Part shown: piece by piece, positions 21,571-56,295 of the stretch
How the letters are laid out: each line of letters starts with the position of its first letter
How positions within the stretch are numbered: position 1 is the first letter of the stretch
Source of the DNA: Erysipelotrichales bacterium
Lineage (GTDB): Bacteria > Bacillota_I > Bacilli_A > Erysipelotrichales > Erysipelotrichaceae
Direction of reading: 5' to 3'
Assembly: GCA_910575705.1 (NCBI GenBank)
Contig: CAJTFG010000001.1
Location: 372,001-436,000, forward strand
Length of the DNA stretch: 64,000 nucleotides
The notes under the pieces: generated by a model
Told to the model about the DNA's origin: nothing
The model's input: only the letters and a program-made list of their open reading frames with translations
Databases searched by the model: none
Translations under genes and position numbers: made by a program

Positions 21571-21862
21571 TGCACGATTTCTGTATTTCATGACATCGTT
21601 TATAAACCGCTGACACATTGCAGCGGAGGGTTTTGTGATAATGTCAGCGATTCATATTTCCAATATAGTGAAACCAATTATGTATATGATACCGTATGGG
21701 GTTCATCTCCCTACTCATTAGGTTCCTTTGCATGGGATATTAGAGGCAGACTGGGACATGATTATCCTAACCTAAACTCAGAAGAAGGCTTTCATCAGCG
21801 TCCGGCTCTGTACAGATGAAATAACTATGGTAAGTATCATAGTCATGTATAATATACAGAGG
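21571..21862 (+). other. Variable C-terminal cassette 1 (CTIS...QRPALYR)
   Basis: Left box GCACGATTTCT at 21572, right box CAGCGTCCGGCTCTGTA at 21796, 75 codons apart in one open frame, stop 21817-21819. The frame holds a Cys pair (THCSGGFCDN) and VWGSSPYSLGSFAW. The nested hairpin pairs CTCTGTA (21806) with TACAGAG (ends 21861), with an inner stem at 21824-21843. No start codon or ribosome site precedes it. Confidence 0.8.
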
Positions 21863-21960
21863 GATTTCCAATATTTACTAATATTTTTTTGTACATTATC
21901 TGGTATTCTTTCTATAAAGGTAGGCTTTTTATTCTTCTCTTCCCTTCTTGGATCAGCTAT

Positions 21961-22291
21961 AGCACGATTTCTGTTCACAATAAAATTATGGTTGTGATTA
22001 CTACAAAAGGAACTAACGGTTCTCAAACAGGTTCAGAATATGTCAGCGGCAGTAAACTTCAAGTACTCCAATGGAACAGAGAGACTGGACATAATTTTGA
22101 GGAATTTTGGGGATCTCATAGTTTTACGGAAACTCAAGCCTTGATCACTGGCGATAATGGTTATATTCATCCAAAAGTTGCGAATCTTACCCCAACAGAA
22201 ACTGCACCTCAAGTGCCTCGCGGTCAGCGTCCGGCTCTGTATCGATGAGAAAACTATGGTAAGTATCATAGTCGTGGATACCATACAGAGG
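21961..22291 (+). other. Variable C-terminal cassette 2 (STIS...QRPALYR)
   Basis: Left box at 21962, right box at 22225, 88 codons apart in frame, stop 22246-22248. No Cys pair. Outer stem CTCTGTAT (22235) with ATACAGAG (22283), inner stem 22253-22272. The upstream context CTTGGATCAGCTATA is shared with cassettes 3 and 6. A TTG at 21889 is in frame but has no ribosome site. Confidence 0.8.
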
Positions 22292-22389
22292 GGTTTCCAA
22301 TATTTACTAATAAATTTTTATAAATTATCTGTTATCCTTTTCCTATAGGTAGGCTTTTTATACATTCCTTCCCTTCTTGGATCAGCTAT

Positions 22390-22686
22390 AGCACGATTTC
22401 TGCTAGTCAATTCATCATCACTCGTCCTGGTACAAGCTGTGCAACAGGTGTTTGTTCCGGAGGTTCTCATACACCTTCCTTTTGGTATGCAACTAATGAT
22501 GGTGTATTTCTTTGGACACTTTCCTGTTCTCCCTCTAATCCTCATCAACTTTATGGACAAAGCGCACTTGCCTATTATCCAAGTGACCACCCGGCATCTG
22601 CCGGTTCCATTCAATATTCCCAGCGTCCGGCTCTGATGATCTAAGATAACTATGATAGGTATCATAGTTCAAACAACATACAGAGG
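22390..22686 (+). other. Variable C-terminal cassette 3 (STIS...QRPALMI)
   Basis: Left box at 22391, right box at 22621, 77 codons apart in frame, stop 22642-22644. It contains the Cys pair TSCATGVCSGG. The inner hairpin ACTATGAT/ATCATAGT (22649-22668) is a perfect 8-bp stem with a 4-base loop. The outer stem is shorter (CTCTG/CAGAG). Confidence 0.8.
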
Positions 22687-22711
22687 AAAAAGTAGAAAAA
22701 AGAGGATTGGG

Positions 22712-22858: not shown

Positions 22859-23144
22859 AGCACGATTTCTGTAAAAAACAACAGAGTTGCTACGATGGTC
22901 AGCCTTGAGCCATTATTTCCCTTATTTTACAAAGGAGACAATACCTCTGCACCCTATCCAAATGCTTATTGGCTATCTTCTTTTCAAACAGCCCTAATAC
23001 CTCTTATCGTAATGTATGATGGCTCTATGGATGGGAAATCATGGTGGGATAACCGTGCATCCGAGGGAATTTTCCCACAGCGTCCGGCTCTGTATCGATG
23101 AAAGAACTATGGTAAGTATCATAGTCGTGTATACTATACAGAGG
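22859..23144 (+). other. Variable C-terminal cassette 4 (STIS...QRPALYR)
   Basis: Left box at 22860, right box at 23078, 73 codons apart in frame, stop 23099-23101. The C-terminal half (YWLSS, then MYDGSMDGKSWWDN, then QRPALYR) is the member most like a C-type-lectin fold ending in RPAL. Outer stem 23088-23095 with 23136-23143, inner stem 23106-23125. Confidence 0.8.
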
Positions 23145-23295
23145 ATAGATATTTCCAATATTTACTAATATTTTTTTGTACATTATCTGGTATCCTGTTC
23201 CTATAGGTAGGTTAAAAAAGGAAAAAGAGGATGAAATTTTATGCATAAGAGGAGCCTTATTTAAAACTATTGGACTGGGGTTCCATTATAAGGGG

Positions 23296-23608
23296 AGCAC
23301 GATTTCTTATCATAATTACATCGTTCATAAGGATGTTACTACATGTCAGCATATCGGTATCTGCCTTGAAGGTTCTAAAGTCTTCGCTCTATCATACCCC
23401 GATCCCGGTTATTGCGATGAACGAACAACATGCCCGCGATTGTATATGGGTTCAACTCCCGGTAGTAATGTAGTATTTTCTGCTTATGATTTTCAGGGAA
23501 TGGGTACACTAAGACGACCCGGTCATGATCAATATGACTTTCAGCGTCCGGCTCTGTATAAATTGGATAGCTATAATAAGCATTATAGTTCTATATAACA
23601 TGCAGAGG
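23296..23608 (+). other. Variable C-terminal cassette 5 (STIS...QRPALYK)
   Basis: Left box at 23297, right box at 23542, 82 codons apart in frame. The frame reads on through the hairpin to a stop at 23596-23598. Cys pair TTCQHIGICLEG. Stems are altered but still pair: CTCTGTAT with ATGCAGAG (one G-T), and CTATAAT with ATTATAG (23571-23588). Confidence 0.8.
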
Positions 23609-23741
23609 AAAAAAGGACAGAAACAGTCCTAGTAGTTTATGATAAATAAGAAAGGTAGGATGTATGTATATAAAGTTATAACACATACAAAAGTAGAAAA
23701 TTTATGGATCTTATCAATACCCAAGTACTTGGATCAGCTAT

Positions 23742-24034
23742 AGCACGATTTCTGTTAACCATAAAGTCGTCGTAAGCCCATCAATCAGCTTTAGCGGCAG
23801 CAAAGATTTTACTATGAGATGGAAACCCATATCCGTTTATCAATGGGAATCCACACACACTGCAACCGTATATCCTGTCAATAAAAACAGCGTCTACTTC
23901 ATCGGCTTTCTCGGCGTTACGGATATCGGTGCTGTTGGCGAGACAAACAATAAACAAGGTCTTCATCAGCGTCCGGCTCTGTTAAATGTTTGCTAACTAT
24001 AATAGGTATTACAGTTCTATACAGCATACAGAGG
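23742..24034 (+). other. Variable C-terminal cassette 6 (STIS...QRPALLNVC)
   Basis: Left box at 23743, right box at 23967, 75 codons apart in frame, stop 23994-23996. No Cys pair within the variable part. Inner stem ACTATAAT with ATTACAGT-type partner (23996-24015), outer CTCTG with CAGAG. It ends 65 bp before the DeoR-family gene, whose promoter must lie in or near this cassette. Confidence 0.78.
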
Positions 24035-24959: not shown

Positions 24960-25709
24960 ATGAAAACAACAGACACCAGAAAACGAGCATTATTAGAAGG
25001 ATTGAAAGACGGACTTATCGTATCCTGTCAGGTGCAGCACGATGATCCGATCTACACGGACGATATCGTCGTCAAAATGGCAGAAGCGGCAAAATGGGCG
25101 GGAGCTGTCGCTATTCGCGCCAATTCTCCGGAACAAATCAAAGCGATCAAGGAAAAAGTCGATCTTCCGATGATCGGTTTATGGAAGATCTGGCATGACG
25201 ATACGGACGTATTTATCACACCTACCTTAGAAGCCGCAAAAGCGGTTTGGGAAGCAGGTGCAGAGATCATTGCCTTAGACTGTACCGCACAGACGACACA
25301 CGAAGGAACGCAGGCTTGGGATCTGATCAAAGAAGTAAAAAAAGAAATACCGGAAGCAATCATCTTTGCGGACGTATCCAACTATGAAGAAGCAAGACGA
25401 GCCATCGACAATGGTGCGGATATCGTCGCTCCGACATTGTATGGCTATACAAAAGAAACCCAGCATATCGAAGGTGCCGATTACCGTGCATTTGCGAAAA
25501 TGTGCCGTGATTTCAAAGATGAGGCATACGTTATGATGGAAGGACATCTGTATACACCGGAAGACGCGATGAAATGCATTTATTTAGGAGCACACAGCGT
25601 TGTTGTCGGAAGTGCGATCACACGACCTCATTTAACTGCCAAACGCTTTGTTGATTTGTTAAGCGGTTATCAAAACAACTGGCGAGATGCAGAGAAAGCG
25701 AAACACTGA
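24960..25709 (+). CDS. nanE: NanE-like N-acylmannosamine-6-phosphate 2-epimerase, paralogue 1
   Basis: Encodes a 249-residue TIM-barrel of the NanE family, which epimerises ManNAc-6-phosphate to GlcNAc-6-phosphate. Recognisable landmarks: LIVSCQVQHDDPIY, the catalytic Lys in MIGLWKIWHDDTDVFITPT, IALDCTAQ, FADVSNYEEARRA, GADIVAPTLYGYT and the catalytic Glu in MMEGHLYTPEDA, then GSAITRP. It differs from paralogue 2 in the loops next to these residues (WKIWHDD instead of VKRNYDD), so its substrate may be a related sugar phosphate. It is followed one base later by the GRE gene, so they are co-transcribed. AGAGAGG ribosome site. Confidence 0.88.
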   Translation: MKTTDTRKRALLEGLKDGLIVSCQVQHDDPIYTDDIVVKMAEAAKWAGAVAIRANSPEQIKAIKEKVDLPMIGLWKIWHDDTDVFITPTLEAAKAVWEAGAEIIALDCTAQTTHEGTQAWDLIKEVKKEIPEAIIFADVSNYEEARRAIDNGADIVAPTLYGYTKETQHIEGADYRAFAKMCRDFKDEAYVMMEGHLYTPEDAMKCIYLGAHSVVVGSAITRPHLTAKRFVDLLSGYQNNWRDAEKAKH

Positions 25710-25710
25710 T

Positions 25711-27978
25711 ATGGCAAGGATCAACATTGACGGCGAACAAAATGTAGAAGTCAGTAAACCGGTTCCTTCCGAGAAAACTCCTCAGCAGCAGCTGGCGATC
25801 ATGGAGGCGTATACAGAAGCGCATAAAAACAGCGCACATCTGGATAAAGCACAGCGCGAGATCAACTGTCTGAAAACGATTTTTCCGGTGCTGTTTCGTT
25901 CCATCGGGGAGGATGATTTGATTGCCGGAAGACTGGATTTTCTTCCGATCGGCTTCGGCAGTGTAACAAGCATCGGCGGTGTCGGTCACTACTGTGTATT
26001 CCATAAGCTGCGTGCTTTCAAGGAACAGTTAACTACCGAGGAAGAAAAAGCAAGAGTCGATGCTCTTTATGACTACTGGCAGGAACATGATGTGAAATCC
26101 ATCTACTGTCAGGATGTATTAAACGATACGACGACCGGACGTTTTATCGACTGCAATTATCCGTTTATGGCTACTGCCCGTTTAAGCGGTATGATGTTAA
26201 ATTACAAAAAGTTGATGAAATACGGTATCAACGGATTGATCGAATTGATCAATCGGCAAGGAGATAATGCGTTCTTAACCAGTTCCGCAGAAGCTCTTGC
26301 GCTGTTAAAAACAGTTATCGACCGTCAGATCGAGCTTGTGGAGGAAAAGCTGACAACAGCACAAGGACAGCGTCAAAAAGATCTGCAGCTGATGAAGGAT
26401 GATCTGGCTGTGATACGGGAAGATGTTCCGCATACGTTCCATCAGGCATTACAGCTGTTTTGGATCTACGCTCTATGTGCCGGCGTCATCAACTACGGAC
26501 GCATGGACGATGTATTAGGTCCTTATCTGAAAGATGATATCGATGCCGGACGGATCGATGAAGAAGAAGCTTACCGCTATTTAAAATCCTTATGGAAGAT
26601 GATCGAAAACCGCAGAACAACGGTAAACGGACGCATCATTGTCGGCGGCAAAGGAAGAGAACATGCAGAGGCAGCGGATTTGTTCGCCCGCATCTGTCTT
26701 CGCGTATGCAAAGATACCCGCTATGTAGAACCGCAGTTTACTCTTCGATTCAGTTCCGATACGCCGCAGGACATCATGGATATGGCGTATGACTGCATCG
26801 GCAGCGGTGCTACGTATCCTACTTTATATAACGATGATGTCAATATACCGGCAGTGGAATACGCTATGCGGGTAGATCAAAAAACAGCCCAGCAGTATGT
26901 ACCGTTCGGATGCGGAGAATTCGTCATCCAAGGACAAAGCGTCGGTACACCGAACACAATGTTAAACTTGTTGAAGATCTTCGATATGACGCTGCATGAA
27001 GGCGCCGACTCCTTTGACGGCATTAAGAAAAACGGGCCGGTACATGTAAAACCATTAAGCGAATTTCATACGTTTGATGATCTGTATGAGCAATATAAAA
27101 AGCTCTTAGATTACTATTTCGATATAAGCGTACAGGCACAGAGCTATTCTTATGAGGTAATGAACAAGGAAGTTTCTTTCCTGTTTACAAGCATATTGAT
27201 GGATGACTGCATCACTAGAAAAAAAGCGCTTTTGGACGGTGGTGTAAAAATCCTCGGCGGTACAAACGAAACGTATGGAAATATCAATACAAGCGATGCC
27301 TTGTATGCCATCAAAACACTTGTATATGAGCAGAAAAAATATACGCTGGAACAGTTAGTGGAAGCAGCGGATCATGACTTTGCAGGTTATGAATATATCC
27401 AGAAAGATTTGTTGGATGCACCGAAATACGGAAACGACCATACCGCATGTGATGAACTGGCAAATGATCTTTATGAGTTTGTCGCAAAAGGTATCCGTCA
27501 GCGCGGGATCGACGCCGGTATGGGATATTATCTGATTGTTATCAGCAATAACCAGACAAATACCGATTGGGGACATAAAACGGCCGCTTCTTTAGATGGT
27601 AGAAAATCCGGGCTTTATATGAATCCCGCCAACAATCCGCAAGGCGGCGCCGCAAAGAGCGGACCTACGGCCGTATTAAATTCATTGAGCCGCTTTGATG
27701 CCAAATACCATGGCGGAAGTGTACAAAATATCAAATTCACACCGCGGATGTTCCAAAAAGACAGAGAGAAGATCAAATATCTGTTTCAGACATATTTTGC
27801 GAAAGGCGGCTGTCAGCTGATGGTGACCGTTGTCGATCACGGTATCTTGGAGGATGCACAAAAGCATCCGGAGAACTATCCAGATCTGATCGTCCGCGTT
27901 GCCGGATACAGCGCTGTCTTTGTCAATCTGACAAAGGATATCCAAGAAGAACTCATGAGTCGTGAACTGTATGATTAA
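25711..27978 (+). CDS. Glycyl radical enzyme 1 (pyruvate formate-lyase superfamily, GCGE type)
   Basis: Encodes 755 residues of the glycyl radical superfamily. The C-terminal radical site is RVAGYSA (glycine near residue 732). The active-site loop is FGCGEF (Cys about 401, Glu about 403). Cys-x-Glu is kept, as in dehydratase/lyase members, but the usual middle Val is Gly. The start is set at MARINIDG, one base after the nanE stop, though an in-frame ATG eight codons earlier is possible. Its activase follows with an overlap. A sugar-phosphate substrate is suggested by the NanE and DeoR neighbours; the reaction is not known. Oxygen-sensitive, so anaerobic use. Confidence 0.9.
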   Translation: MARINIDGEQNVEVSKPVPSEKTPQQQLAIMEAYTEAHKNSAHLDKAQREINCLKTIFPVLFRSIGEDDLIAGRLDFLPIGFGSVTSIGGVGHYCVFHKLRAFKEQLTTEEEKARVDALYDYWQEHDVKSIYCQDVLNDTTTGRFIDCNYPFMATARLSGMMLNYKKLMKYGINGLIELINRQGDNAFLTSSAEALALLKTVIDRQIELVEEKLTTAQGQRQKDLQLMKDDLAVIREDVPHTFHQALQLFWIYALCAGVINYGRMDDVLGPYLKDDIDAGRIDEEEAYRYLKSLWKMIENRRTTVNGRIIVGGKGREHAEAADLFARICLRVCKDTRYVEPQFTLRFSSDTPQDIMDMAYDCIGSGATYPTLYNDDVNIPAVEYAMRVDQKTAQQYVPFGCGEFVIQGQSVGTPNTMLNLLKIFDMTLHEGADSFDGIKKNGPVHVKPLSEFHTFDDLYEQYKKLLDYYFDISVQAQSYSYEVMNKEVSFLFTSILMDDCITRKKALLDGGVKILGGTNETYGNINTSDALYAIKTLVYEQKKYTLEQLVEAADHDFAGYEYIQKDLLDAPKYGNDHTACDELANDLYEFVAKGIRQRGIDAGMGYYLIVISNNQTNTDWGHKTAASLDGRKSGLYMNPANNPQGGAAKSGPTAVLNSLSRFDAKYHGGSVQNIKFTPRMFQKDREKIKYLFQTYFAKGGCQLMVTVVDHGILEDAQKHPENYPDLIVRVAGYSAVFVNLTKDIQEELMSRELYD

Positions 27979-28867
27979 CATTTGCAACATCGAGCGTTTT
28001 GCGACGCATGACGGTCCCGGTATCCGCACGGTCGTCTTCTTTCAAGGGTGCCCACTGCGCTGTCCATGGTGTGCCAATCCGGAATCACAGATCATACAGG
28101 CACATCTATTGTACGATCACAAAAAATGCGTCGGCTGCCAAGTATGCGAGCAGCATTGTCCGACAAAAGCGATCCAATTTACCGATCATCGTTTCACATG
28201 GGATAGAAGCCTTTGTATTCACTGTAAAGCATGTGAACAGGCATGCCTGCATCATGCGATCAGCTTTGCCGGAGAACAGAGATCCATCGATGACATCATG
28301 GAAGAGATACGGAAAGATAAAGATTATTATCGATCTTCTCACGGCGGCGTTACCATTTCCGGCGGAGAAGCCTTCATGCAATTTCCGCAACTGATGGAGC
28401 TGTTAAAAAAGCTGAAAGAGGAAGACCTGCATGTCACGATAGAGACCTGCGGACAGTTTCCAAGCGAATATCTGGAACAGGCATACCCATATATCGATCT
28501 GTTTTACTTTGACATCAAGCATGTCGATGATGATATATACCGATCTACGGTAAAAGGAAACCGAAAACAAGTTCAGAGAAATATGGAATACCTGACACGG
28601 AAAGATCCCGATAAGATCGTCTTTCGGGTACCCGTCATCCCCGGTTTTAACTATGATGATAAAACACTGAACGCCATTATCGATCTGGCAAAACAGCATC
28701 ACGTAAAAGAAGTCCATTTTCTTCCCTATCATACTTTGGGCAAAGTCAAGTATGAAAAAATGCTGCAAGACTACACATGGAGTCCGACGATGATGAAAGA
28801 GGAAGAACTTGAAAAGTATAAACCATATGCCCTGTCACAGGGGATTACTTTAAAGATCGGCGGATAA
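27971..28867 (+). CDS. Glycyl radical enzyme activase 1 (radical SAM)
   Basis: Encodes 298 residues. It begins at an ATG that overlaps the end of the GRE gene by 8 bp; a GTG three codons earlier is less likely. The radical SAM motif is CPLRCPWC (about residue 27), followed by a two-cluster ferredoxin insert, CVGCQVCEQHC and CIHCKACEQAC, then the SAM-binding SGGEAFMQ. It uses S-adenosylmethionine to install the glycyl radical on its partner. The two extra [4Fe-4S] sites are typical of activases for GRE lyases and dehydratases rather than of PflA itself. Confidence 0.95.
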   Translation: MINICNIERFATHDGPGIRTVVFFQGCPLRCPWCANPESQIIQAHLLYDHKKCVGCQVCEQHCPTKAIQFTDHRFTWDRSLCIHCKACEQACLHHAISFAGEQRSIDDIMEEIRKDKDYYRSSHGGVTISGGEAFMQFPQLMELLKKLKEEDLHVTIETCGQFPSEYLEQAYPYIDLFYFDIKHVDDDIYRSTVKGNRKQVQRNMEYLTRKDPDKIVFRVPVIPGFNYDDKTLNAIIDLAKQHHVKEVHFLPYHTLGKVKYEKMLQDYTWSPTMMKEEELEKYKPYALSQGITLKIGG

Positions 28868-31758: not shown

Positions 31759-32601
31759 TTATGTTCCGTGAACAATCGTTTGTATTCCTTCTTTATGAAA
31801 CATCTCTTCTATCTGATGAACCTCTTCATCACGTAACGGTGTCAGTTCTTCACATGTATATTCCATCGCGATGGATGCGTATTTATTGGCACCCAGCTGA
31901 TGAAACGGAAGCAGGTGCACTTCTGTGAGATTCAGCTCTTTTACACTTTTTATGACCTCCCGCACATTTTGCGGTGTTGCCGTATATGTCGGTATAAGCG
32001 GTATACGCGGTATTACTTTGCCGTTCATTGCCAAGATCGAACGTACATTCTCTTTCATCTGCAGCACATCCAGATGCAGGATCTCACGGCTCTTTTGCGG
32101 ATCCATGATCTTAAAATCCACAAGAAATAAATCGACATACTTCACAAGCTCTTCCAATCTTGCGATCGGCAGCGACATCGTCGTTTCTACCGCCGTATGA
32201 ATATGCTCTTCTTTGCATTTCTTCAAAAGCTCGATCGCAAAATCGATCTGTAATAAAAACTCACCGCCGGATAGCGTTACACCGCCGCCGCTGGATTCAT
32301 AAAATACCCGATCACGCTGTACGATATCAAATACCTCATCGATGCTCTTCATCTCTCCGATGATCTCTTTGGCACCTGTCGGACAGTCTTTCGCATCGGT
32401 TTCACACATGCCGTTAATCTTCTTTGAACAATTCATACATATGCTTTTTTTGTAAAACAGCTGCGGTTTCATACTGAGGGACTCGGGATTGCAGCACCAC
32501 GGACATCGGCAATGACATCCTTTAAAAAATACGATCGTGCGAATACCGCCGCCATCATGCAACGAATAGCGCTGGATATTAAAGATACACGCCTGCATCA
32601 T
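31759..32601 (-). CDS. Glycyl radical enzyme activase 2 (radical SAM)
   Basis: Encodes 280 residues. Radical SAM motif CHCRCPWC (about residue 29) in the context LHDGGGIRTIVFFKGC, and SGGEFLLQ for SAM binding. The iron-sulphur insert is reduced: it contains CMNCSKKINGMCETDAKDC rather than the two full ferredoxin motifs of activase 1. It overlaps the end of the GRE2 gene by 4 bp (ATGA-type), so it surely serves that enzyme. It resembles the PflC/YbiY group. Confidence 0.94.
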   Translation of the reverse strand: MMQACIFNIQRYSLHDGGGIRTIVFFKGCHCRCPWCCNPESLSMKPQLFYKKSICMNCSKKINGMCETDAKDCPTGAKEIIGEMKSIDEVFDIVQRDRVFYESSGGGVTLSGGEFLLQIDFAIELLKKCKEEHIHTAVETTMSLPIARLEELVKYVDLFLVDFKIMDPQKSREILHLDVLQMKENVRSILAMNGKVIPRIPLIPTYTATPQNVREVIKSVKELNLTEVHLLPFHQLGANKYASIAMEYTCEELTPLRDEEVHQIEEMFHKEGIQTIVHGT

Positions 32602-34877
32602 AATACATGCTCGCTTCGGCGGATGATGTCATCCTGAATCGGCTTGCTTAATTCCGTAAACATCGCACTATAACCGGCTACGCGCACAACGAGATCTTTA
32701 TAATTCTCCGGATGCTTTTGCGCATCAATCAGCGTTTCGCGATGAATGACATTGAATTGAATATGTTGCAGCTTCAAGCGAGAAAAACTCTTCAAATAGC
32801 TGATCAGCTTTTCAATGCCGCGTTCCCCTTCTAAGGTAGAAGGAGAAAACTTCACATTTAACAAGCTGCCGTTGGAATTCAAGATATTATCAAGCTTACT
32901 GACGCTCTTCAGACTGGCACTCGGTCCCTGCTGATCTCTTCCGACCATCGGCGACAATCCGCCATCCGCAAGCTGTTCTCCCGCTTTTCTGCCATCAGCA
33001 CTAGCACCGACACCTTCTCCCAAAGGTATATGAGCACTTACGGTATAAGAACCGGGATGGAACGTACCGCCGCGCGGATTCTCATACTTCGCTACCTCAT
33101 CGCCATAAAATGAAAGCAGACTGGCGCCCAAAGTGTCCACCTCATCGTTATCATTGCCGTACTTCGGATATTTATTGATGAAGTACTGACGCAAAGTCTC
33201 TTCGTTTTCCCAGTTATGCTCCAATATATCGAGCAGCTTTTGATACGATAAACGCTGTTCTTCAAACACTGCCTTTTTTACCACATACAACGAATCACTC
33301 AAATTAGGACAGCCGATCCCCTGTACACCGGAGAAATTATACTTCGCGCCCCCGGCAGTAATATCCAGTCCCTTTTCCTTGCATCCTTCAATAAACGTAG
33401 AAAGAAACGGTGTCGATGCACATTCACGATGGGCGATATCACACGTATTGCTGCCCTCTACCATAAAGCGGATATAATATGCAATGTTCTTCTTGATCGC
33501 TTCATGGAACTCATCATAGCTATCAAATCCTTCCGGATGTTCCTTCATGGTGATCTCCATGCACTTCAAAAGATTGAACATCGCAATATCGTGCAGCCCG
33601 TATGTCTTTGCCGGAATGCTTAATTCCACACATCCGACCACGGCATAATCGCGCGCATCATGCAAGTTGACGCCGCGGTTCACATATGCCAGGATATTGG
33701 CTTCATCATTGAAGATCTGCGGCAGTCCCGTTCCCAGACGAATGGTTTGTGCCGCCGTCTTCCACAATGTATACGGCGTTTGTTCATGCACACGAACAGA
33801 GAGATTCGGCTGCGGCAGACGAATATCCTCATGCAGCCTCAAAAGCAGCTCTGAAAAATCATTGCTGGCATCTTTTCCATCTCTATCCACACCGCCTACC
33901 ATCAGCGTGTAGCCGATCGGGAATCCGGCAAAGAATTTTGCACTTTCACTGCTGCGTATCGCTACGATGGAATTAAACTTTAAATATAAGCAATCCAACA
34001 ATTCTTTCACAAATTCGGGATCTGTTTCCTTTTTATAATAGGAATACATATACTGATCAAAGCGCCCGACGGAAATAGAACTCGCATTGGATTCATGCTG
34101 GAAGATCACACAGCTGATCCAAAATAACTGCACTGCTTCATAAAGCGTATCCGGACGTTCATACGCTACCTTATGCAAGATGCGTTTGATCTCCTTTAGT
34201 TCTTCTATTCTTTTCTCATCACGGCAATCATCGATCTTTTTATCCACTTCCGCCTCATAGCGCAAAACATAGCGGATAGCGGCTTCCAAACAGATTTCAC
34301 TTGCTTCATAAAAAGCATTTTCCGGATGTTCCTTACGCAGCAGCCGCATTTCTTCCAGCAGCTTCTCCAACCCGTTTTCCAACAAATACGGATAGTCTGG
34401 AATGATGTGTCCCTGTCCTTTATCGGTCTGGTTGATCGCAACTACCTTTGTCTGCACCGCCTTTTTCACATCTTCGGAAACATGCTCGTTATAATAGTCC
34501 TTTAATGAGCGTCCCTTCCAATACGGATATAGATGCTCGCGGTAATACTGCTTATCTTCCTCGCTCATGCGGAATTTATCCTGCGGTCTTGTTTCAAATT
34601 GATCCAATTCCTCTAAGATCCAATACGGTGACATCTCCGGAGAAATGACACCGCTGCGCGGAAATTCACTTCGATTTCCGACGAGCAGATCATCGTCGTC
34701 GATCACGATCACATGGTTCTCTAATATATGACGCAAAGCTTTCGCTCTGCGAACAACGATCGGTTCTCCTTCCGTCATCTGAAAGCTTTCCGTATATAAA
34801 ATGGATCTCTCTAACGATACGACGCGCGGATCCGCAAATAACGATGCCTTGATTCTTTGTGTGCGTTCTGACAGCAT
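32598..34877 (-). CDS. Glycyl radical enzyme 2 (PflD/YbiW-like)
   Basis: Encodes 759 residues of the glycyl radical superfamily with the canonical VVGCVELSIP active-site loop (Cys about 416, Glu about 418) and RVAGYSAM radical site (glycine about 735). Other landmarks: GRFDQYMYSYY and ADGRKAGEQLADGGLSPM. It heads the operon with its activase and an FSA-type aldolase and is divergent from DeoR regulator 2. This context fits the YbiW group, for which I recall a sugar-phosphate (1,5-anhydroglucitol-6-phosphate) lyase assignment. That substrate is inference here. Confidence 0.93.
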   Translation of the reverse strand: MLSERTQRIKASLFADPRVVSLERSILYTESFQMTEGEPIVVRRAKALRHILENHVIVIDDDDLLVGNRSEFPRSGVISPEMSPYWILEELDQFETRPQDKFRMSEEDKQYYREHLYPYWKGRSLKDYYNEHVSEDVKKAVQTKVVAINQTDKGQGHIIPDYPYLLENGLEKLLEEMRLLRKEHPENAFYEASEICLEAAIRYVLRYEAEVDKKIDDCRDEKRIEELKEIKRILHKVAYERPDTLYEAVQLFWISCVIFQHESNASSISVGRFDQYMYSYYKKETDPEFVKELLDCLYLKFNSIVAIRSSESAKFFAGFPIGYTLMVGGVDRDGKDASNDFSELLLRLHEDIRLPQPNLSVRVHEQTPYTLWKTAAQTIRLGTGLPQIFNDEANILAYVNRGVNLHDARDYAVVGCVELSIPAKTYGLHDIAMFNLLKCMEITMKEHPEGFDSYDEFHEAIKKNIAYYIRFMVEGSNTCDIAHRECASTPFLSTFIEGCKEKGLDITAGGAKYNFSGVQGIGCPNLSDSLYVVKKAVFEEQRLSYQKLLDILEHNWENEETLRQYFINKYPKYGNDNDEVDTLGASLLSFYGDEVAKYENPRGGTFHPGSYTVSAHIPLGEGVGASADGRKAGEQLADGGLSPMVGRDQQGPSASLKSVSKLDNILNSNGSLLNVKFSPSTLEGERGIEKLISYLKSFSRLKLQHIQFNVIHRETLIDAQKHPENYKDLVVRVAGYSAMFTELSKPIQDDIIRRSEHVL

Positions 34878-36689: not shown

Positions 36690-37002
36690 GGCACGATTTC
36701 TTCTGCATATATTCCCTATATGCAGATGACGATCAATAACGGAGGAATCGCTGTTCCCGGTGTCATTAATCTTGCTATGCGATGGAACTCTATTTCAAAT
36801 TTAGAATGGGAATATACATGGTGGTCAACTCCTGCCGCACCCCAAAGAACATACTCCAACAGTTATGACAGATGGTATTGGGATAATTGGGTTTCCTGGT
36901 ATAAACCAAATCCTTCAGCTGCTCTTATGCCCCTTCAGCGTCCGGCTTTGTATTATCTCCATACATTGTAGTAAGCATTACAATGCCATATAACTTACAA
37001 AG
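36690..37002 (+). other. Variable C-terminal cassette 7 (GTIS...QRPALYY)
   Basis: Left box at 36691, right box at 36936, 82 codons apart in frame, read-through to a stop at 36969-36971. Very aromatic (WEYTWW, WYWDNWVSWY). Key covariation: the right box carries CTTTGTA instead of CTCTGTA, and its partner is TACAAAG instead of TACAGAG (36996-37002). Inner stem CATTGTA/TACAATG. Confidence 0.8.
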
Positions 37003-37039
37003 AAAAAGGTAAAGAGGGCTGGGTGTTCGCTTCTAAGGT

Positions 37040-37271
37040 GGCACGATTTCTGCTAGTCATGAGCGTTCTGTTTTTCAATATTATACAACCTTATTTCCAT
37101 GGAACATAAGTGCAACTCTTTCTGATGCAGATACTAAACGAGTGCACGATTACAAAAACACCGGTATCTCTGGCTCTACTCCTGTAATTGATACTGATGA
37201 ATATCAGCGTCCGGCTCTGTATAGATGAAAGAACTATGGTAAGTATCATAGTCGTGTATACCATACAGAGG
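37040..37271 (+). other. Variable C-terminal cassette 8 (GTIS...QRPALYR)
   Basis: Shortest member: left box at 37041, right box at 37205, 55 codons apart in frame, stop 37226-37228. Outer stem CTCTGTAT (37215) with ATACAGAG (37263), inner stem 37233-37252. An in-frame TAA lies three codons before the left-box codon, so this copy cannot be translated from upstream. Confidence 0.8.
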
Positions 37272-37370: not shown

Positions 37371-37680
37371 TGCACGATTTCTCAAGCTCATTATATCGAG
37401 ACGGTAGTTTCTACCTCATGTAGTTCCGGATATAACTGTAATGGTTCCGTAGATCCGTATATGGTCTTTCATGCGGTAACAGAGAAACCCGCCGATGTTT
37501 GGTGGGCTTCTTCCATCTTTAATAATACACATCCATATCATGTGGGAAAATCCGGTTATTTTGCAAATTCTGTCCATGCAGTTGGTACATCAAATCCCGG
37601 TGTACTTGCACATCAGCGTCCGGCTCTGCACATGGTAAAGAATCACGATACGTATCATGGTTACATACATTGTACAGAGG
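37371..37680 (+). other. Variable C-terminal cassette 9 (CTIS...QRPALHM)
   Basis: Left box at 37372, right box at 37614, 81 codons apart in frame, continuing to a stop at 37683-37685. Cys pair STSCSSGYNCNG, then DVWWASSIF. The inner stem is AATCACGAT with ATCATGGTT (one wobble, one mismatch). An ATG at 37338 is in frame, the only cassette with a nearby ATG, but no clear ribosome site precedes it. Confidence 0.78.
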
Positions 37681-46331: not shown

Positions 46332-46635
46332 CCTCTGCATATTATATAGAACTATAATGCATATTACAGCTTTCCTATCGATGCAGAGCCGGACGCTGGG
46401 AGCCCATGGTAAACGCATGCACGTCCGGTTCTCCTGCGGCAAACATGAGATCCATACCACCGTTGTTTCCAAAACTAAACGCAATATTCGGCAGTCCCCA
46501 CTTGCTGCTGCTAAAAGGAAGCGATGAAGACCATATACGCGTATCGCCGGTCGTATACAATGCAGCTAAGCTTCCGAACAGATCACCGCATTGCTCTTCC
46601 GGAAGGTATGTCCCATAATGAGAAGAAATCGTGCC
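46332..46635 (-). other. Variable C-terminal cassette 10 (GTIS...QRPALHR), reverse strand
   Basis: Left box is the complement of 46624-46634, right box ends at 46398, 79 codons apart in frame, stop 46377-46375. The left box starts only 6 bp after the fhs stop on the same strand. No Cys pair; FGNNGGMDLMF is a glycine-rich turn. Covariation: CTCTGCAT pairs with ATGCAGAG (46333-46340), and the inner stem CTGTAAT with ATTATAG. Confidence 0.8.
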
Positions 46636-48462: not shown

Positions 48463-48732
48463 AGCACGATTTCTCATTCCTATGGAATCATAAGCTCCTA
48501 TGACGGCATAAGAGTGAAGGTTTTCGCATATCCTTGGACACAAACCGGCTCATGGGGATTTGAATCTTCGTTTTTATCTTCTGCACATAATGGCACACTT
48601 GCCACAGGTATTCAGTGCTGGGGATCTTGGGGAATTCCCAGAGCTGACCGCAAAGATGAAGGAAACCAGCGTCCGGCTCTGTAGAGATTAGACAACTATG
48701 ATGGGTATCATAGCTCAAATAACATACAGAGG
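48463..48732 (+). other. Variable C-terminal cassette 11 (STIS...QRPAL)
   Basis: Left box at 48464, right box at 48667, 68 codons apart in frame, stop 48682-48684 directly after QRPAL. Rich in Gly, Ser and Trp (WTQTGSWGFESSF). Outer stem CTCTGTA (48677) with TACAGAG (ends 48731), inner stem ACTATGAT with ATCATAG (48695-48714). Confidence 0.8.
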
Positions 48733-48919: not shown

Positions 48920-49195
48920 GGCACGATTTCTTATCGTCATGGCTACGTTACGGAGGTAAGCGCAATTGGCGCGGATAAAAGAGATTTTACTTTCCGTTGG
49001 CAACAAGTATCTTTACAACCTTTGGAAGGATTTCATCAAAGTACTCCCAGCACTCTCATCCGTTCTTATGCTATATATCATGATGCTACACTGACCGATA
49101 CACTGGCAGATAATAACGTAAATCGTCATCAGCGTCCGCTCTGGTATAAATGAAGAATCATGATAAGTATCATGATTTCCTATGATATACAGAGG
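48920..49195 (+). other. Variable C-terminal cassette 12 (GTIS...QRPLWYK)
   Basis: Left box at 48921, right box at 49130, 70 codons apart in frame, stop 49151-49153. The right box is altered (CAGCGTCCGCTCTGGTA, one G moved), which changes the ending to QRPLWYK but keeps the frame and length. The inner stem AATCATGAT/ATCATGATT (49156-49177) is a perfect 9-bp variant. An in-frame TAG lies just upstream of the left box. Confidence 0.78.
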
Positions 49196-49334: not shown

Positions 49335-49693
49335 AGCACGATTTCTGCCAGCTATCGAATACTCCCTGTTCCCACGACAACCTGTTCTAACGGTGTTGGT
49401 ATAGGACCCGAGTTTTGTAACGGAAACCTATTGCCTGCTTTATCCTGGTCGGTTTCCAACGGCTTCTTATATGACGAATCCTGGACTTCTACCCCTGCAG
49501 GTAACATTACGTTATATCATAACAGAATGGGCGCATGGACGATCGGTAATACCGGCTACTATATTTTATATCCGGGTAATAACTTAACGGGTACCACCGT
49601 ACACCGCATTCAGCGTCCGGCTCTGTAGATATTCAACAATGGATATAGTAAATAATTATAGTAGGTATTATAATTTCATATTTTTTACAGAGG
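49335..49693 (+). other. Variable C-terminal cassette 13 (STIS...QRPAL)
   Basis: Longest member: left box at 49336, right box at 49611, 92 codons apart in frame, stop 49626-49628. Cys pair TTCSNGVGIGPEFCNGN, later SWTSTPAGNITLYHN and NTGYYILYPG. Outer stem CTCTGTA/TACAGAG, inner stem AATTATAGTA with TATTATAATT (10 bp with one wobble). Confidence 0.8.
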
Positions 49694-51520: not shown

Positions 51521-51572
51521 TAAAGTGCCCCGACAATAATCAGATTTGGGTCAATTAAATAGAGGTGGACAA

Positions 51573-52181
51573 ATGCTTCGTAAAAACGATATTAAAAATG
51601 TAAGAAAGTTATTCAATCGACATCACTATGTAATGACTACTGCCGAGCTTCTTGAAGCTAAGCTATATTATGCAGATATTAAGCAGCTTTTGGATGAGGG
51701 CTTTATTGAAAGAATAAGACGGGGGTACTATCATTGGATTGAAAACGGCGAAACCAGAGAAATAGTTATCATCAATAGTTTGTTTCCCGATGCTGTTCTT
51801 TGTATGGAAACTGCTCTATTTTATTATGAATACAGCGATAGAAATCCTGCTGAATGGAATTTTGCCATAGATAGAAATGTTTCAAAATTGCGAACCAATA
51901 TAGAGTACCCATTCATTAAAGCATATCGTATTGAATCCGGTTTGGTTACGCTTGGTGAAACAACAGGTGAGATTGATTTCACAAAAGTGCGAATTTATGA
52001 CCGTGACAGAACAATTTGTGATGTTCTGAAAAATATGAGTAAAATGGATAAAGAAATTTTCAATAAAGCAATACAAGGGTATGTTAATGACCCGAAAAAG
52101 AATATACCAAACCTTATGATGTATGCAAAAAAACTACGTGTGCAAAAGAAGGTTAAAGAATTGATTGGAGTGTGGTTGTAA
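51573..52181 (+). CDS. abiEi: AbiEi-family antitoxin (type IV toxin-antitoxin)
   Basis: Encodes 202 residues; the start is MLRKNDIKN with AGAGGTGG upstream. N-terminal winged helix (about 1-75, VMTTAELLEAKLYYADIKQLLDEGFIERIRRGYYHW) is followed by the AbiEi C-terminal domain (FPDAVLCMETALFYYEYSDR, RIYDRDRTICDVLKN). AbiEi represses the operon and blocks the toxin without direct contact. The stop overlaps the next start (TAATG), so the two are coupled. Known AbiE systems abort phage infection. Confidence 0.92.
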   Translation: MLRKNDIKNVRKLFNRHHYVMTTAELLEAKLYYADIKQLLDEGFIERIRRGYYHWIENGETREIVIINSLFPDAVLCMETALFYYEYSDRNPAEWNFAIDRNVSKLRTNIEYPFIKAYRIESGLVTLGETTGEIDFTKVRIYDRDRTICDVLKNMSKMDKEIFNKAIQGYVNDPKKNIPNLMMYAKKLRVQKKVKELIGVWL

Positions 52182-53116
52182 TGGCAGATATAGCAGCTTC
52201 CATTCTGGCAAAGCTGAGAAATAAAGCAAAAGCTTCTGGTATCAGCTATCAGCAATGCTTGCAACTTTTTGTGCAAGAAGAATTTTTGAGAAAACTATCA
52301 AAATCTGGGTGTGAGGATACGCTAATACTCAAAGGTGGATTGTTCATTTATACGCTAACTAATTTTGAAAGTCGAGCTACCATTGATGTCGATTTCCTGC
52401 TCCGTGGATACTCTAATTCAATAGATGATGTAAAAGAATTGATTTGTAAAATCATCGACACTCCGACCGGCAACGATTATATAGAAATGCGAGCAAAAGG
52501 CTTTGAGGAGATTTCTCCGCAAAGAAAATATCACGGCATCAGTACACAGATTATTGCTCAAATAAAAAATGTGCGTGTACCGTTCAATGTTGATATAGGA
52601 GTAGGCGATATTATAGTCCCCCGTGCCGAATTACGCACAATCAACACTCAGCTTCCAGACTTTGAAGCACCTGTAATCAAAACTTATTCCCTTGAAAGCA
52701 CCATTGCCGAGAAATTTGATGCCATACTGCAACGCTTTGAACTAACTGGCAGGATGAAAGACTTTTATGACATCTATTATCTTTCAAGGACATTCGATTT
52801 TGAAGGTGCAAAATTGCAGGCAGCTATCTTTGAAACCTTACAGCGGCGTGGTACTCCCTACAACCGAGATAGTTTTAAGCGTGTTGTTGCACTTGCCGAG
52901 GATGAGGATATACAGAAGCGTTGGAAATTCTTTTTGAAAACTATAAAAGATGATACGCTTGAGTTTCTTGTAGTTATTGAGGAAATACAGATTTTTCTTG
53001 AGCCTGTGTTTGATATGATTGTAAATGAGAAAGAGTTCCAAAAGATTTGGCATTCTACAGAAGATGAATGGAAATATATTGATTCAAGAATACATAATTA
53101 CGAAAGCAAAAGATAG
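52181..53116 (+). CDS. abiEii: AbiEii-family nucleotidyltransferase toxin
   Basis: Encodes 311 residues of the AbiEii/MenA nucleotidyltransferase fold. Motif FVQEEFLRKLSKSG then LILKGGLFIYTL, the metal-binding TIDVDFLLRG (Asp-x-Asp), and IDIGVGD, then the lysine/Glu-rich YSLESTIAEKFDAI conserved in the family. Related toxins transfer nucleotides to tRNA and stop translation. It shares one base with the antitoxin stop, and only 12 bp separate it from the CBASS operon, so the two defence systems may be transcribed together. Confidence 0.92.
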   Translation: MADIAASILAKLRNKAKASGISYQQCLQLFVQEEFLRKLSKSGCEDTLILKGGLFIYTLTNFESRATIDVDFLLRGYSNSIDDVKELICKIIDTPTGNDYIEMRAKGFEEISPQRKYHGISTQIIAQIKNVRVPFNVDIGVGDIIVPRAELRTINTQLPDFEAPVIKTYSLESTIAEKFDAILQRFELTGRMKDFYDIYYLSRTFDFEGAKLQAAIFETLQRRGTPYNRDSFKRVVALAEDEDIQKRWKFFLKTIKDDTLEFLVVIEEIQIFLEPVFDMIVNEKEFQKIWHSTEDEWKYIDSRIHNYESKR

Positions 53117-53128
53117 GGGTTGAAAATT

Positions 53129-54130
53129 ATGAAATTAAAAGAACAATTTAGCAAATTTCACGATAATATTAAAGCAACATTGACATCTGAATTAAAAGAA
53201 GAAAGAACTATGTTTGAAGATGAAATAAAAAATAAGTTTCCTTCTATTTGTGATGAACATGAAATTAAAATCAATAAATCAGATTTGAATTTTTTCATGC
53301 AAGGATCTTATTCTATTTCAACGGCAATAGATGCATATGATAGTTCTGTAGATTTAGATTTGGCAGTAGCTTTTCCATTTGATGTTGATGAAAATAAAGA
53401 TTGCCGTGTTATAAAAGGTTATATGAGAGATAGTATTGATACTTATAATAGAACAATTAATTATAAGGTACCATGTATTACAGTTACATATCTTGAAGGC
53501 GGTGAAGAATCTTATCATATTGATTTTCCAATCTATGCTATTCATAATGATAAATATTATTTAGCAAAAGGAAAAGAGTATAGTGAGGACTATGGATGGG
53601 AATCGTCTGATCCAAAAGGGTTAAAAGAATATTTGGAAGGATATTTAACAAATAATCCTCAATTAAGAAGAACAATAAGATATTTAAAATGTTGGAAATT
53701 AAATGCTTTTAACAAAGATAATGGTAATGAAATGCCTCCAAGTATCACATTAACATTACTAGCATGTCAGTATTTTGAAGCGAAAAAGGAAGATAATCAT
53801 GATGATGATTTAGAAGCTTTGTATAATGTTGTGAAAAAGATAAAAGATTCAATTAATAGTTATAGTGAGGATCCTTATTATCATGTGAATTTGCCAGTTA
53901 CTCCTTATACGGATACAATGTTTAAAATAAATTCCAATTCTTCATATAGAAAGAAGTTTAAGGATAAAATTTATGATTTTGAATTACAATTGAGAAATGC
54001 GAAAAATGCTGGTGATGAACACACGGCTGGAGAATATGTACGTAAAGTATTAGGTGAGGAATTTGAAGTTCCAGAAAAGCAGGTAGATGCAGGTGAAAAT
54101 AGCTTTAGAAGAACAAGTCAATTTGGATAA
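53129..54130 (+). CDS. CBASS CD-NTase (cyclic oligonucleotide synthase)
   Basis: Encodes 333 residues; ATG 53129 follows AGGGG, and a TTG three codons earlier is possible. The nucleotidyltransferase core has QGSYS (Gly59-Ser60), VDLDLAV (Asp75 and Asp77) and HIDFP (Asp132), the expected metal triad of SMODS-type CD-NTases. It would make a cyclic di- or oligonucleotide on phage infection and so activate an effector. The protein ends in glycine (TSQFG), as needed if Cap2 conjugates it through its C-terminus. It is followed by Cap2 with a 44-bp overlap. The nucleotide product cannot be read from sequence. Confidence 0.93.
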   Translation: MKLKEQFSKFHDNIKATLTSELKEERTMFEDEIKNKFPSICDEHEIKINKSDLNFFMQGSYSISTAIDAYDSSVDLDLAVAFPFDVDENKDCRVIKGYMRDSIDTYNRTINYKVPCITVTYLEGGEESYHIDFPIYAIHNDKYYLAKGKEYSEDYGWESSDPKGLKEYLEGYLTNNPQLRRTIRYLKCWKLNAFNKDNGNEMPPSITLTLLACQYFEAKKEDNHDDDLEALYNVVKKIKDSINSYSEDPYYHVNLPVTPYTDTMFKINSNSSYRKKFKDKIYDFELQLRNAKNAGDEHTAGEYVRKVLGEEFEVPEKQVDAGENSFRRTSQFG

Positions 54131-55754
54131 AAAGTTTATTGAAAGTAAATTGGCAGAATTTTCGCATATTGTAGAAATTGAGGAAAAATTTATTCAATTT
54201 GAATATAAAGATGAGACATTTTATTTATTTCCAAATTTTGATGGAATCCCAGAAATTTGTGTTTTAACTAATCAAATTAAATCATATCCACATTTTTGCT
54301 TGCATAAAAGTTTACAATATAAAGAATTTAACTTTTATTCCATATGTTTATATGTAAGTGATGAAATTTCATTCTATAATGCTACTTATCAAGAAAAGTT
54401 TGAATTTATTATAGAGCAATTTATAAGATTAATGAACTTAAATAAGTATGAATTAGAAAAGGAAGTTATGAGTGAGTATAGATACCATTGGAATAAAATT
54501 TCAGAATCATTTGTGTATTCAAATGTTTCACCACTAGATTCGATTAACAATATTCACATGTTTGAATACAGAAGAAAAAAAGATGAGAAGCCTACAAAGA
54601 AATATATTCTTTCAAAAAATTTCCCTTTTGATACATCTATATATAGTTATACTCAAATAAACTGTTTATATCTTGATATTGTTGATATGAAAGGAATTTT
54701 ACCTCCTCCTTTTAAAACATGGGATATTAAGCTATTAAAGGATTTGTTATTTAGTATCAAAAGAAAGCGTTTTGATGAAAAAATATGTAAATTTTTATCA
54801 AATTATAATGTCAAAGAAAAAGTATTTATCTTTTTACGTATTCCACAATTTGATAATTTTGAAATTGGAATAAAAGTAACATTTTCAAATGATGAAAAAT
54901 GTAAATTGAAAAGCAAACTTAATCAAATTGAATCGATTACTTTTATTGAAGTATCAAATAGAAATATTGAAGCAAGTATTATTAGGAATGGAGGTATTCC
55001 TGTCGAATGCAAGAAAGTATTAATGATTGGATGTGGCTCATTAGGTTCATATATTGTTAGAGAATTACCAAAAATTGGAGTAAATAATATCACAATTGTC
55101 GATGGGGATAGTTTGGAATTTAGCAATTTATCTAGGCATATGTTGGGAGAGATGTTTGTTGGTCGTAATAAAGCTATAAGTATGTGTAATTTACTTTCTG
55201 TAGAATATGAGAATATGAAATTTAATGCTATTAACAAATATGTGACAGATAGTAATATTCATGAAATCATCAACGATGAATCTGATTACGATTTGGTTAT
55301 CATCACTACAGGTAATGAAGATTTACAATATATGCTCAATAAACGATTATTCAGTTTGAAAAAATTTATTCCAGCAATTTTTTGTTGGTTAGAATCTCAT
55401 TCCATAGGTTCTCATACTTTGGTTATGAAAAATGAATTTAGTGGCTGTTACAACTGTCTAATGAACGCTAATTTAAATTATATAAAAAATAGTACTAAAC
55501 AAATTAGGTATAATGGTTGTGGAGGAGTTTATTCTCAATATGGAACGAATATTCTATTAAATACATCAGCATTAATTGTTGATATAATTAGTGCATGGTC
55601 ATCTATTAAGTCTAATATTTTATACTCATATAAAACTAAAAATATTATAAATAGTATAGAAGGCATACAATTTACAGAACGTTATTATGAAGATGAATAT
55701 GGAATAAATGTAATTGAGAATTTAAAAAATAAGGAATGTGATTGCTGTGATTGA
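54087..55754 (+). CDS. cap2: CBASS Cap2, fused E2-E1 ubiquitin-like transferase
   Basis: Encodes 555 residues. The N-terminal part (about 1-160) is E2-like, with a candidate catalytic Cys in YPHFCLHKSLQ. The C-terminal part (about 305-555) is an E1/ThiF domain with the glycine-rich nucleotide site VLMIGCGSLGSYIV, VDGDSLEFSNLSRHML and, later, GCYNCL and CDCC, which may bind zinc or hold the E1 Cys. Cap2 primes the CD-NTase by attaching its C-terminal glycine to a target. The start ATG lies inside the CD-NTase gene, so translation is coupled; a GTG two codons on is an alternative. Confidence 0.94.
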   Translation: MQVKIALEEQVNLDKKFIESKLAEFSHIVEIEEKFIQFEYKDETFYLFPNFDGIPEICVLTNQIKSYPHFCLHKSLQYKEFNFYSICLYVSDEISFYNATYQEKFEFIIEQFIRLMNLNKYELEKEVMSEYRYHWNKISESFVYSNVSPLDSINNIHMFEYRRKKDEKPTKKYILSKNFPFDTSIYSYTQINCLYLDIVDMKGILPPPFKTWDIKLLKDLLFSIKRKRFDEKICKFLSNYNVKEKVFIFLRIPQFDNFEIGIKVTFSNDEKCKLKSKLNQIESITFIEVSNRNIEASIIRNGGIPVECKKVLMIGCGSLGSYIVRELPKIGVNNITIVDGDSLEFSNLSRHMLGEMFVGRNKAISMCNLLSVEYENMKFNAINKYVTDSNIHEIINDESDYDLVIITTGNEDLQYMLNKRLFSLKKFIPAIFCWLESHSIGSHTLVMKNEFSGCYNCLMNANLNYIKNSTKQIRYNGCGGVYSQYGTNILLNTSALIVDIISAWSSIKSNILYSYKTKNIINSIEGIQFTERYYEDEYGINVIENLKNKECDCCD

Positions 55755-56283
55755 ATATAGAAACGAATTAATAAAAATGTATTCTAATAAGTATAAAATG
55801 ATTATTAATATCTCGGATAATGTGATTTCAAACATGAACTTATATTTACAAAATAAACCATTTATTAATGAGTCAGGTGGCGTTCTTATTGGATACAAAG
55901 TGAGAGGATATGATGAAATTATAATAGAAGATATATCGTTACCAGATGAAAAGGATGAGAGTAGTATTATTAAATTTGTTAGGAAATCTATCTCACATAT
56001 TTTGAAAATAAAGAAGGCCTCTTTAAACAACTCGTTTTGCATTGGTAATTGGCATACTCATCCTGTTTCGATTCCTTGTCCATCTCCAACTGATTTGTCA
56101 ACTTGGAAAGAAGAATTGTTTGAATGCAAAAGTTCTTTTGGGTTTCAAGTATATATTATTTGTGGTATTGATGGTTTTAAAGTTTGGCTTGGTGAAGAAA
56201 AAACTGCTAATATTGTAGAATGTTTTGAATGTGAGAAGAATGACGGAATATATATTGATAGTTTTAATGAAAATGTATTATGA
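55738..56283 (+). CDS. cap3: CBASS Cap3, JAB/MPN deconjugase
   Basis: Encodes about 181 residues. The JAMM zinc motif is complete: Glu in ESGGVLIG, then NWHTHPVSIPCPSPTDLS (His-x-His-Pro, with Ser-x-x-Asp). It removes the Cap2-made conjugate and so balances CD-NTase priming. It overlaps cap2 by 17 bp. The start is uncertain: GTG 55738 sits very close to AAGGA, and GTG 55747 is better spaced. Confidence 0.93.
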   Translation: MIAVIEYRNELIKMYSNKYKMIINISDNVISNMNLYLQNKPFINESGGVLIGYKVRGYDEIIIEDISLPDEKDESSIIKFVRKSISHILKIKKASLNNSFCIGNWHTHPVSIPCPSPTDLSTWKEELFECKSSFGFQVYIICGIDGFKVWLGEEKTANIVECFECEKNDGIYIDSFNENVL

Positions 56284-56295
56284 GGTAAAAATATA

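Follow-up and report, generated by a model that had tools for sequence, protein, structure and literature searches.

Silent cassettes, a covarying 3′ RNA element and a DGR-type reverse transcriptase point to probable retroelement-derived cassette switching in an Erysipelotrichales genome

Results

Silent cassette units in the window

The window (the whole 64-kb stretch of DNA that was analysed) carries 13 cassette units, which are intergenic and stand singly or in short rows (Table 1). The order of modules is left box (GCACGATTTCT), open cassette, right box (CAGCGTCCGGCTCTG), hairpin and the motif TACAGAGG. Right-box matches at three or fewer mismatches number 12 in the window, against a mean of 0.6 and a largest value of 3 in shuffled sequence.

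An earlier note, made from the letters of the window, had singled out the stretch at 22859-23144 for its boxes, frame and hairpin. These features were borne out, and shuffles, genome-wide controls and the phase shared among units argue that they are not due to chance. As claimed, the protein end is of the RPAL(Y) kind, the frame of unit 4 closing ...QRPALYR; the right box is GC-rich, with G or C at 11 of its 15 bases; and past the stop lies a hairpin with an 8-bp stem and a 4-base loop, the stem being 9 bp in most cassette copies. The note was also right that no reverse transcriptase (RT) is encoded within the 64 kb.

Among the other genes of the window are two glycyl radical enzyme genes with activating-enzyme genes (25687-28867 and 31759-34877), near transaldolase-like and DeoR-type regulator genes (all identified by eye). 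An AbiEi/AbiEii toxin-antitoxin pair (51546-53116; PADLOC) lies directly upstream of a CBASS type II-like defence operon (53120-57138), whose oligonucleotide cyclase, E1-E2 protein, JAB protease and 2TM effector genes all have strong PADLOC matches. Downstream of the defence genes, a 404-aa IS256-type transposase-like protein is encoded at 57522-58736 (by eye; no PADLOC match).

Table 1. Cassette units and their component features in the window
Feature	Position	Strand	Remarks
Silent cassette unit 1	21572..21862	+	
Promoter-like leader of unit 2, TGGTATTCTTTCTATAAAGGTAGG	21864..21924	+	similar copies at 22293-22353 and 23151-23211
Silent cassette unit 2	21962..22291	+	left homology reaches 21947, as in the expression gene
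Silent cassette unit 3	22391..22687	+	extended left box starting at 22376
Silent cassette unit 4	22860..23144	+	product TISVKNNRV...QRPALYR; left box, body, right box and 3′ RNA element to 23144
Left box GCACGATTTCT	22860..22870	+	11 bp; 128 copies genome-wide
Right box CAGCGTCCGGCTCTG	23078..23092	+	15 bp; last bases CTCTG(TA) form the 5′ arm of the outer stem
Unit 4 stop TGA	23099-23101	+	
Covarying hairpin ACTATGGT-AAGT-ATCATAGT	23105..23124	+	
ATACAGAGG	23136..23144	+	TACAGAG forms the 3′ arm of the outer stem and pairs with right-box CTCTGTA
Silent cassette unit 5	23297..23608	+	
Silent cassette unit 6	23743..24034	+	a 51-bp stretch spanning the left box (23703-23753) matches the expression gene exactly
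Silent cassette unit 7	36691..37003	+	right-box end CTTTGTA, downstream arm TACAAAG (compensatory change)
Silent cassette unit 8	37041..37271	+	
Silent cassette unit 9	37372..37680	+	
Silent cassette unit 10	46332..46634	-	reverse strand
Silent cassette unit 11	48464..48732	+	
Silent cassette unit 12	48921..49195	+	right box CAGCGTCCGCTCTGG, one base missing; 3′ RNA element kept
Silent cassette unit 13	49336..49693	+	

A genome-wide library of open cassettes

The genome (1.85 Mb in 11 contigs) contains 141 right-box matches at two or fewer mismatches (reversed control, 0) and 128 left-box matches (control, 2). About 130 silent cassettes are dispersed through it, with up to ~7 per site outside the window. 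R1, a covariance model of the right box and 3′ element, finds 142 places, ~129 of them on the sense strand; the remaining 13 are opposite-strand mirror matches to the same hairpins.

The phase from box to box is identical in all 132 units that have both boxes. Their bodies range from 153 to 267 bp (median 219), every length being a multiple of three, and the coding frame is open in 130 of them; any other of the five frames is open in at most eight. Damaged units are few, two carrying stops and one a single-base deletion. Most silent units lack a start codon and are intergenic, and none of those examined has an upstream open frame like that of the expression gene described below. The cassettes encode segments of a protein and are not genes in themselves; their consensus reads TISV...GS.D..F...W.SS...G...QRPAL.

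A box resembling AAGGTAGG lies upstream of 78 of the 132 units (14 expected), and in 50 cases (1.6 expected) a -10-like sequence precedes it in the pattern TAYNNT-N2..10-AAGGTAGG. These leaders suggest that many units are transcribed separately. Variant units at L040, L041 and L073 end in RPAQ, their right box being CAGCGTCCGGCTCAA and the partner arm TTGAG or similar; they possibly represent a second address class.

We compared the cassette domain with known folds in several ways. Alignment by hhalign to the variable regions of targets of diversity-generating retroelements (DGRs) gave a weak match (E 5e-4, probability 31%), and Pfam and PDB searches gave none. An AlphaFold model of the expression domain, built with 109 cassettes, had a mean pLDDT of 47, with the cassette part mostly at ~75-90; Foldseek and VIA-align found no fold match for this low-confidence model. 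These comparisons do not demonstrate the C-type lectin fold to which the earlier note had likened the cassette ends.

The 3′ element covaries as a sense-strand RNA fold

In 68 units, all with the standard spacing, the right-box end CTCTG(TA) pairs with a downstream (TA)CAGAG, and between these two arms stands a hairpin of 9 bp whose 4-nt loop is mostly A(A/G)G(T/C). Compensatory changes occur at 13 of the 16 pairs in this set, which was picked partly for pairing; they fill 92 cells of the alignment, compared with a mean of 20 after shuffling (0 of 500 shuffles). Shifting the partner arm abolishes the pairing in the 68-unit alignment. Pairing held for 808 of 927 hairpin cells in 103 units that were picked solely by motif distance, and RNAalifold recovered the same fold unprompted. 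Variant right boxes carry matched downstream arms (CTTTG with CAAAG, CTCTA with TAGAG, CTCAA with TTGAG). The sequence of the stem varies freely, and what is kept is the pairing. Rfam has no match for the element.

On the sense strand, G-U pairs outnumber A-C pairs by 85 to 23. Such an excess would be expected if the selected structure were a sense RNA, or a sense single strand, rather than a DNA cruciform. A target-side DNA cruciform is known from BPP-1, and the earlier note had likened the hairpin to the one downstream of retroelement variable regions. That likeness needs amending: the G-U excess points to RNA, and the expressed target has no such hairpin after its right box and is absent among the R1 matches. 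A target-side cruciform is disfavoured on both counts.

Copying of cassettes into one expressed gene

A single expressed acceptor was found. On contig C3 (~176531-197065; loci L042 and L072) a cassette lies inside an open frame of 6,858 aa, preceded by an ECF-type sigma factor gene. Read by eye, the protein has a signal-peptide-like start and a C-terminal membrane anchor; between them stretches a long repetitive extracellular part, and the variable domain sits near the N-terminal tip.

The expressed cassette (L042) is identical to a silent cassette on another contig (L031) over 247 bp (100%), and the two loci are unrelated outside this stretch. Since the silent copy is still in place at L031, the transfer to L042 was one of copying. 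Silent units show the same pattern among themselves. Bodies at unrelated sites are 100% identical in the pairs L009/L012, L012/L039 and L023/L030, and nearly so in L010/L041 (98.5%) and in L031 and window unit 4 (99.0%; 99% over 207 bp), which lie ~237 kb apart on the same contig. Copying of cassettes is strongly supported by these observations.

Where do the copied tracts end? In most identical or near-identical pairs, identity sets in no more than 15 bp from the left box and stops at the right box; in two of the 100% pairs it runs from left box to right box, with differing leaders and hairpins. The exception is L023/L030, where it continues past the right box through the hairpin and 3′ element. 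Past the boxes, little matches the expression gene: the left side of 110 of 131 units extends the homology by 0-2 nt, and the right side of every unit by 0-4 nt. In five units, 30-40 bp or more upstream of the left box are identical to the expression gene; transfer in the opposite direction, out of the expressed gene and into silent units, may also occur. Neither these five nor L023/L030 are directly explained by a simple cDNA running from right box to left box. The five are window unit 6 (shared stretch 23703-23753) and the units at L020, L025, L030 and L036; the shared sequence includes the coding sequence for ...YPSTWISYS. We looked for polarity in partial cassette mosaics and saw none.

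A DGR-type reverse transcriptase and Avd gene on another contig

The earlier note had proposed searching the genome for an RT of the DGR clade and an accessory gene near the full-length gene. Both kinds of gene are present, on contig C2, apart from the expression gene on C3. The genome has a single RVT_1 match. Its best PDB match is 8ub7 (E 3.6e-43), which we take to be the BPP-1 DGR RT (the table names it only as a reverse transcriptase), and the protein carries a GxxxSQ motif and YMDD. Just upstream, adjoining the RT gene, is a gene of the bAvd family, which scores 45.6 bits with PF22296 bAvd (cut-off 40) and 1.8e-21 with the PHROG Avd profile; with the NCBIfam Avd model it reaches 41 bits, under the cut-off of 80. 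The RT and Avd genes look intact and are of the DGR type. In a tree of 76 RTs, which holds no group II intron or retron and no deliberately included non-DGR outgroup, the RT sits on a long branch and clusters with DGR RTs (support 99/92), among them its closest relatives and two further groups.

No template/variable (TR/VR) repeat was found in ~30 kb around the RT, and among the boxes listed, none places a cassette within ~20 kb. The closest relatives, at 42-45% identity, belong to ordinary DGRs of uncultured gut Bacillota and Mycoplasmatota, in which the template lies ~200-250 bp upstream of the RT and the variable region downstream. The 3′ end of their template, TTCACTTT, pairs with a downstream AAAGTGAA; the two enclose a 9-bp hairpin with the loop AAGA, AAGG, AAGT or AGGT, followed by GG. 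This template-spacer junction and the element downstream of the cassettes share one layout. The outer stem of the relatives hardly varies, so that its support there comes from conservation rather than covariation. R1 found no significant match in their spacers (best E 2.8), and the RNA link therefore rests on shared architecture.

Substitutions between cassettes lack the adenine signature

DGRs place errors opposite template adenines. In the closest DGR relatives, the same kind of count as we made here puts nearly all TR-VR mismatches at template adenines. Related cassettes in this genome instead differ by ordinary transitions, with C/T changes at least as frequent as A/G changes in all identity classes between 70 and 97%, and the expressed cassette is identical to its donor. 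The claim in the earlier note that whole cassettes vary, and not adenine-derived positions only, thus stands: there is no adenine bias, and bodies differ in length. An ordinary adenine-mutating DGR was rejected because of the mutation spectrum and the template layout.

Residues I181 and R74 of the BPP-1 RT reportedly promote adenine mutagenesis, in 2021 work attributed to Handa et al. R74 is conserved in the RT described here. The residue aligned with I181 is Q208, and the same position in ~165 readable relatives is I, V or L, rarely P or another residue, and never Q. This substitution is consistent with faithful copying and does not prove it, and the missing adenine bias would fit any mechanism without an RT equally well. 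RT relatives at L105, L108, L109, L115, L118, L121 and L258 have a GYNPGSQ- or GFNPGSQ-like motif with P at the I181 position. They form a separate branch close to this RT in the tree, and the template pair of L258 is still mostly adenine-directed.

Discussion

What copies the cassettes? We put a probability of about 0.75 on retroelement-derived cassette switching, that is, on a DGR-derived system that is faithful and uses many templates. The earlier note had seen target genes in the cassettes. Here that picture turns around: the cassettes lack start codons and carry an RNA element that the expressed target does not have, so they look like templates or donors, and the best reading of the silent cassettes is that they are templates, not targets. 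The suggestion of a cassette-based system related to DGRs yet distinct from them has held up, given a DGR-type RT, an Avd gene and an RNA element like a TR spacer.

We infer that the RT is the copying agent. A silent unit would be transcribed from its leader as template RNA, and the RT-Avd pair would recognise and bind the 3′ fold and prime cDNA at or near the right box; priming in BPP-1 serves as the analogy for this start (PMC12875486). The RT would then copy the cassette faithfully into cDNA, which would replace the cassette of the expressed gene, or occasionally that of another silent unit, by way of the short boxes. The endpoints of this replacement are observed, whereas its agent is presumed. 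In BPP-1 retrohoming, at least 8 bp of upstream identity suffices (PMC3240598), with which the extra homology of 0-2 nt and 0-4 nt beyond the boxes agrees. The switching reading draws on one genome and one expressed cassette. On balance we think it probable that a mutagenic DGR was turned into a faithful RNA-templated switch, in which one RT-Avd pair serves ~130 templates and one giant protein and the library itself is shuffled through RNA. The system would vary the tip of the giant surface protein from a stored library, presumably in a surface-variation or ligand-binding role.

The strongest competitor is classical gene conversion, in which host homologous recombination copies the cassettes in the way of pilE/pilS or vls, and the RT is unrelated or has another target. 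Such a process would leave the same copies. It readily accommodates silent donors, a single expression site, a donor kept after transfer and the absence of an adenine signature, and the 15-40 bp of extra left homology between some units and the expression gene would suit it as well. Most units, however, share just 11-13 and 15-19 bp with the acceptor, and host recombination gives no account of a sense-strand RNA fold that covaries and in which the right box takes part, of the likeness of that fold to DGR template spacers, or of the sole RT having neither template nor target nearby. We therefore consider gene conversion unlikely.

The two other explanations fit less well. The units could be what is left of an old multigene family, or of some non-autonomous retroelement that had spread between genes, with no switching today, as the intergenic position of most units, their missing start codons and the few damaged copies might suggest. 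Frames intact in 130 of 132 bodies, lengths that are all multiples of three, and signs of recent activity, namely the expressed copy that equals its donor and the several pairs of identical units, make decay very improbable. Least probable of all is exchange of cassettes at the boxes by a tyrosine recombinase, integron- or shufflon-like with the hairpin as site, for which the short conserved boxes, the hairpin beside each cassette and three tyrosine recombinase genes in the genome might speak, because the donor keeps its cassette (copying, not exchange), the expression site has no hairpin, the stem is free in sequence with pairing alone kept and G-U pairs on the sense strand, and the recombinase genes are on C2 and C5, apart from the contig of the expression gene (C3). 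An integron or shufflon proper is likewise disfavoured by the retention of the donor.

How widespread are such cassettes? The elements were found in the source genome only, among the genomes searched: the R1 model gave no second case in 195 other genomes of the same family, nor did the right-box pattern in 394 other genomes of the same class, and a search with the N-terminus of the expression gene found nothing in 40 relatives and GTDB contigs. Right-box matches in viral contigs, one per contig, look like chance. Other lineages could use other boxes. In the open-licence literature, we found faithful or multi-template DGRs only in an atypical DGR of Pseudomonas costantinii, with 6 TRs, 91 TR-VR pairs and few A-to-N changes (PMC6642488), and in a survey of DGRs that notes seven clusters with weak adenine bias.

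If retroelement-derived switching is confirmed, it would unite the random adenine changes of DGRs with the stored set of variants on which antigenic variation relies. A natural RT would then be copying parts of a library into a chosen gene through homologies of ~11-15 bp, which would be a novel route to surface change in bacteria.

By a strict test this system is not a DGR, because adenine mutagenesis and a template next to the RT, both of which were tested for, were not found; its RT, Avd and template RNA nevertheless look DGR-derived. With DGRs of the BPP-1 type and those of gut Bacillota and Mycoplasmatota (L238-L254) it shares a DGR-type RT and Avd, a structured 3′ template spacer, a GC-rich right-hand box, short left homology and a target protein ending in ...RPAL, and with the closest of them an outer stem and A(A/G)GN hairpin at the template-spacer junction. 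Unlike DGRs, which usually have one template beside the RT, it has ~130 dispersed templates, swaps whole cassettes of different length without adenine-specific mutagenesis, has Q at the I181 position and has an expressed target with no downstream hairpin. The P. costantinii DGR, as described in the paper on it, is similar in having several templates and little adenine bias. Its TR and VR are ~97.6% identical over ~122 bp, whereas most cassettes here share little beyond the boxes. Integron gene cassettes are also followed by a structured element, but they are whole genes that are inserted and excised, while the cassettes here are parts of one protein, copied by replacement between two boxes. 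Finally, the system resembles Borrelia vls and Neisseria pilE/pilS in its single expression site, silent partial genes, one-way copying and surface protein, and differs from them in that its donors are scattered over the genome rather than held in one or a few arrays, in its very short homology, in the RNA fold on its donors and in the DGR-type RT encoded in the same genome.
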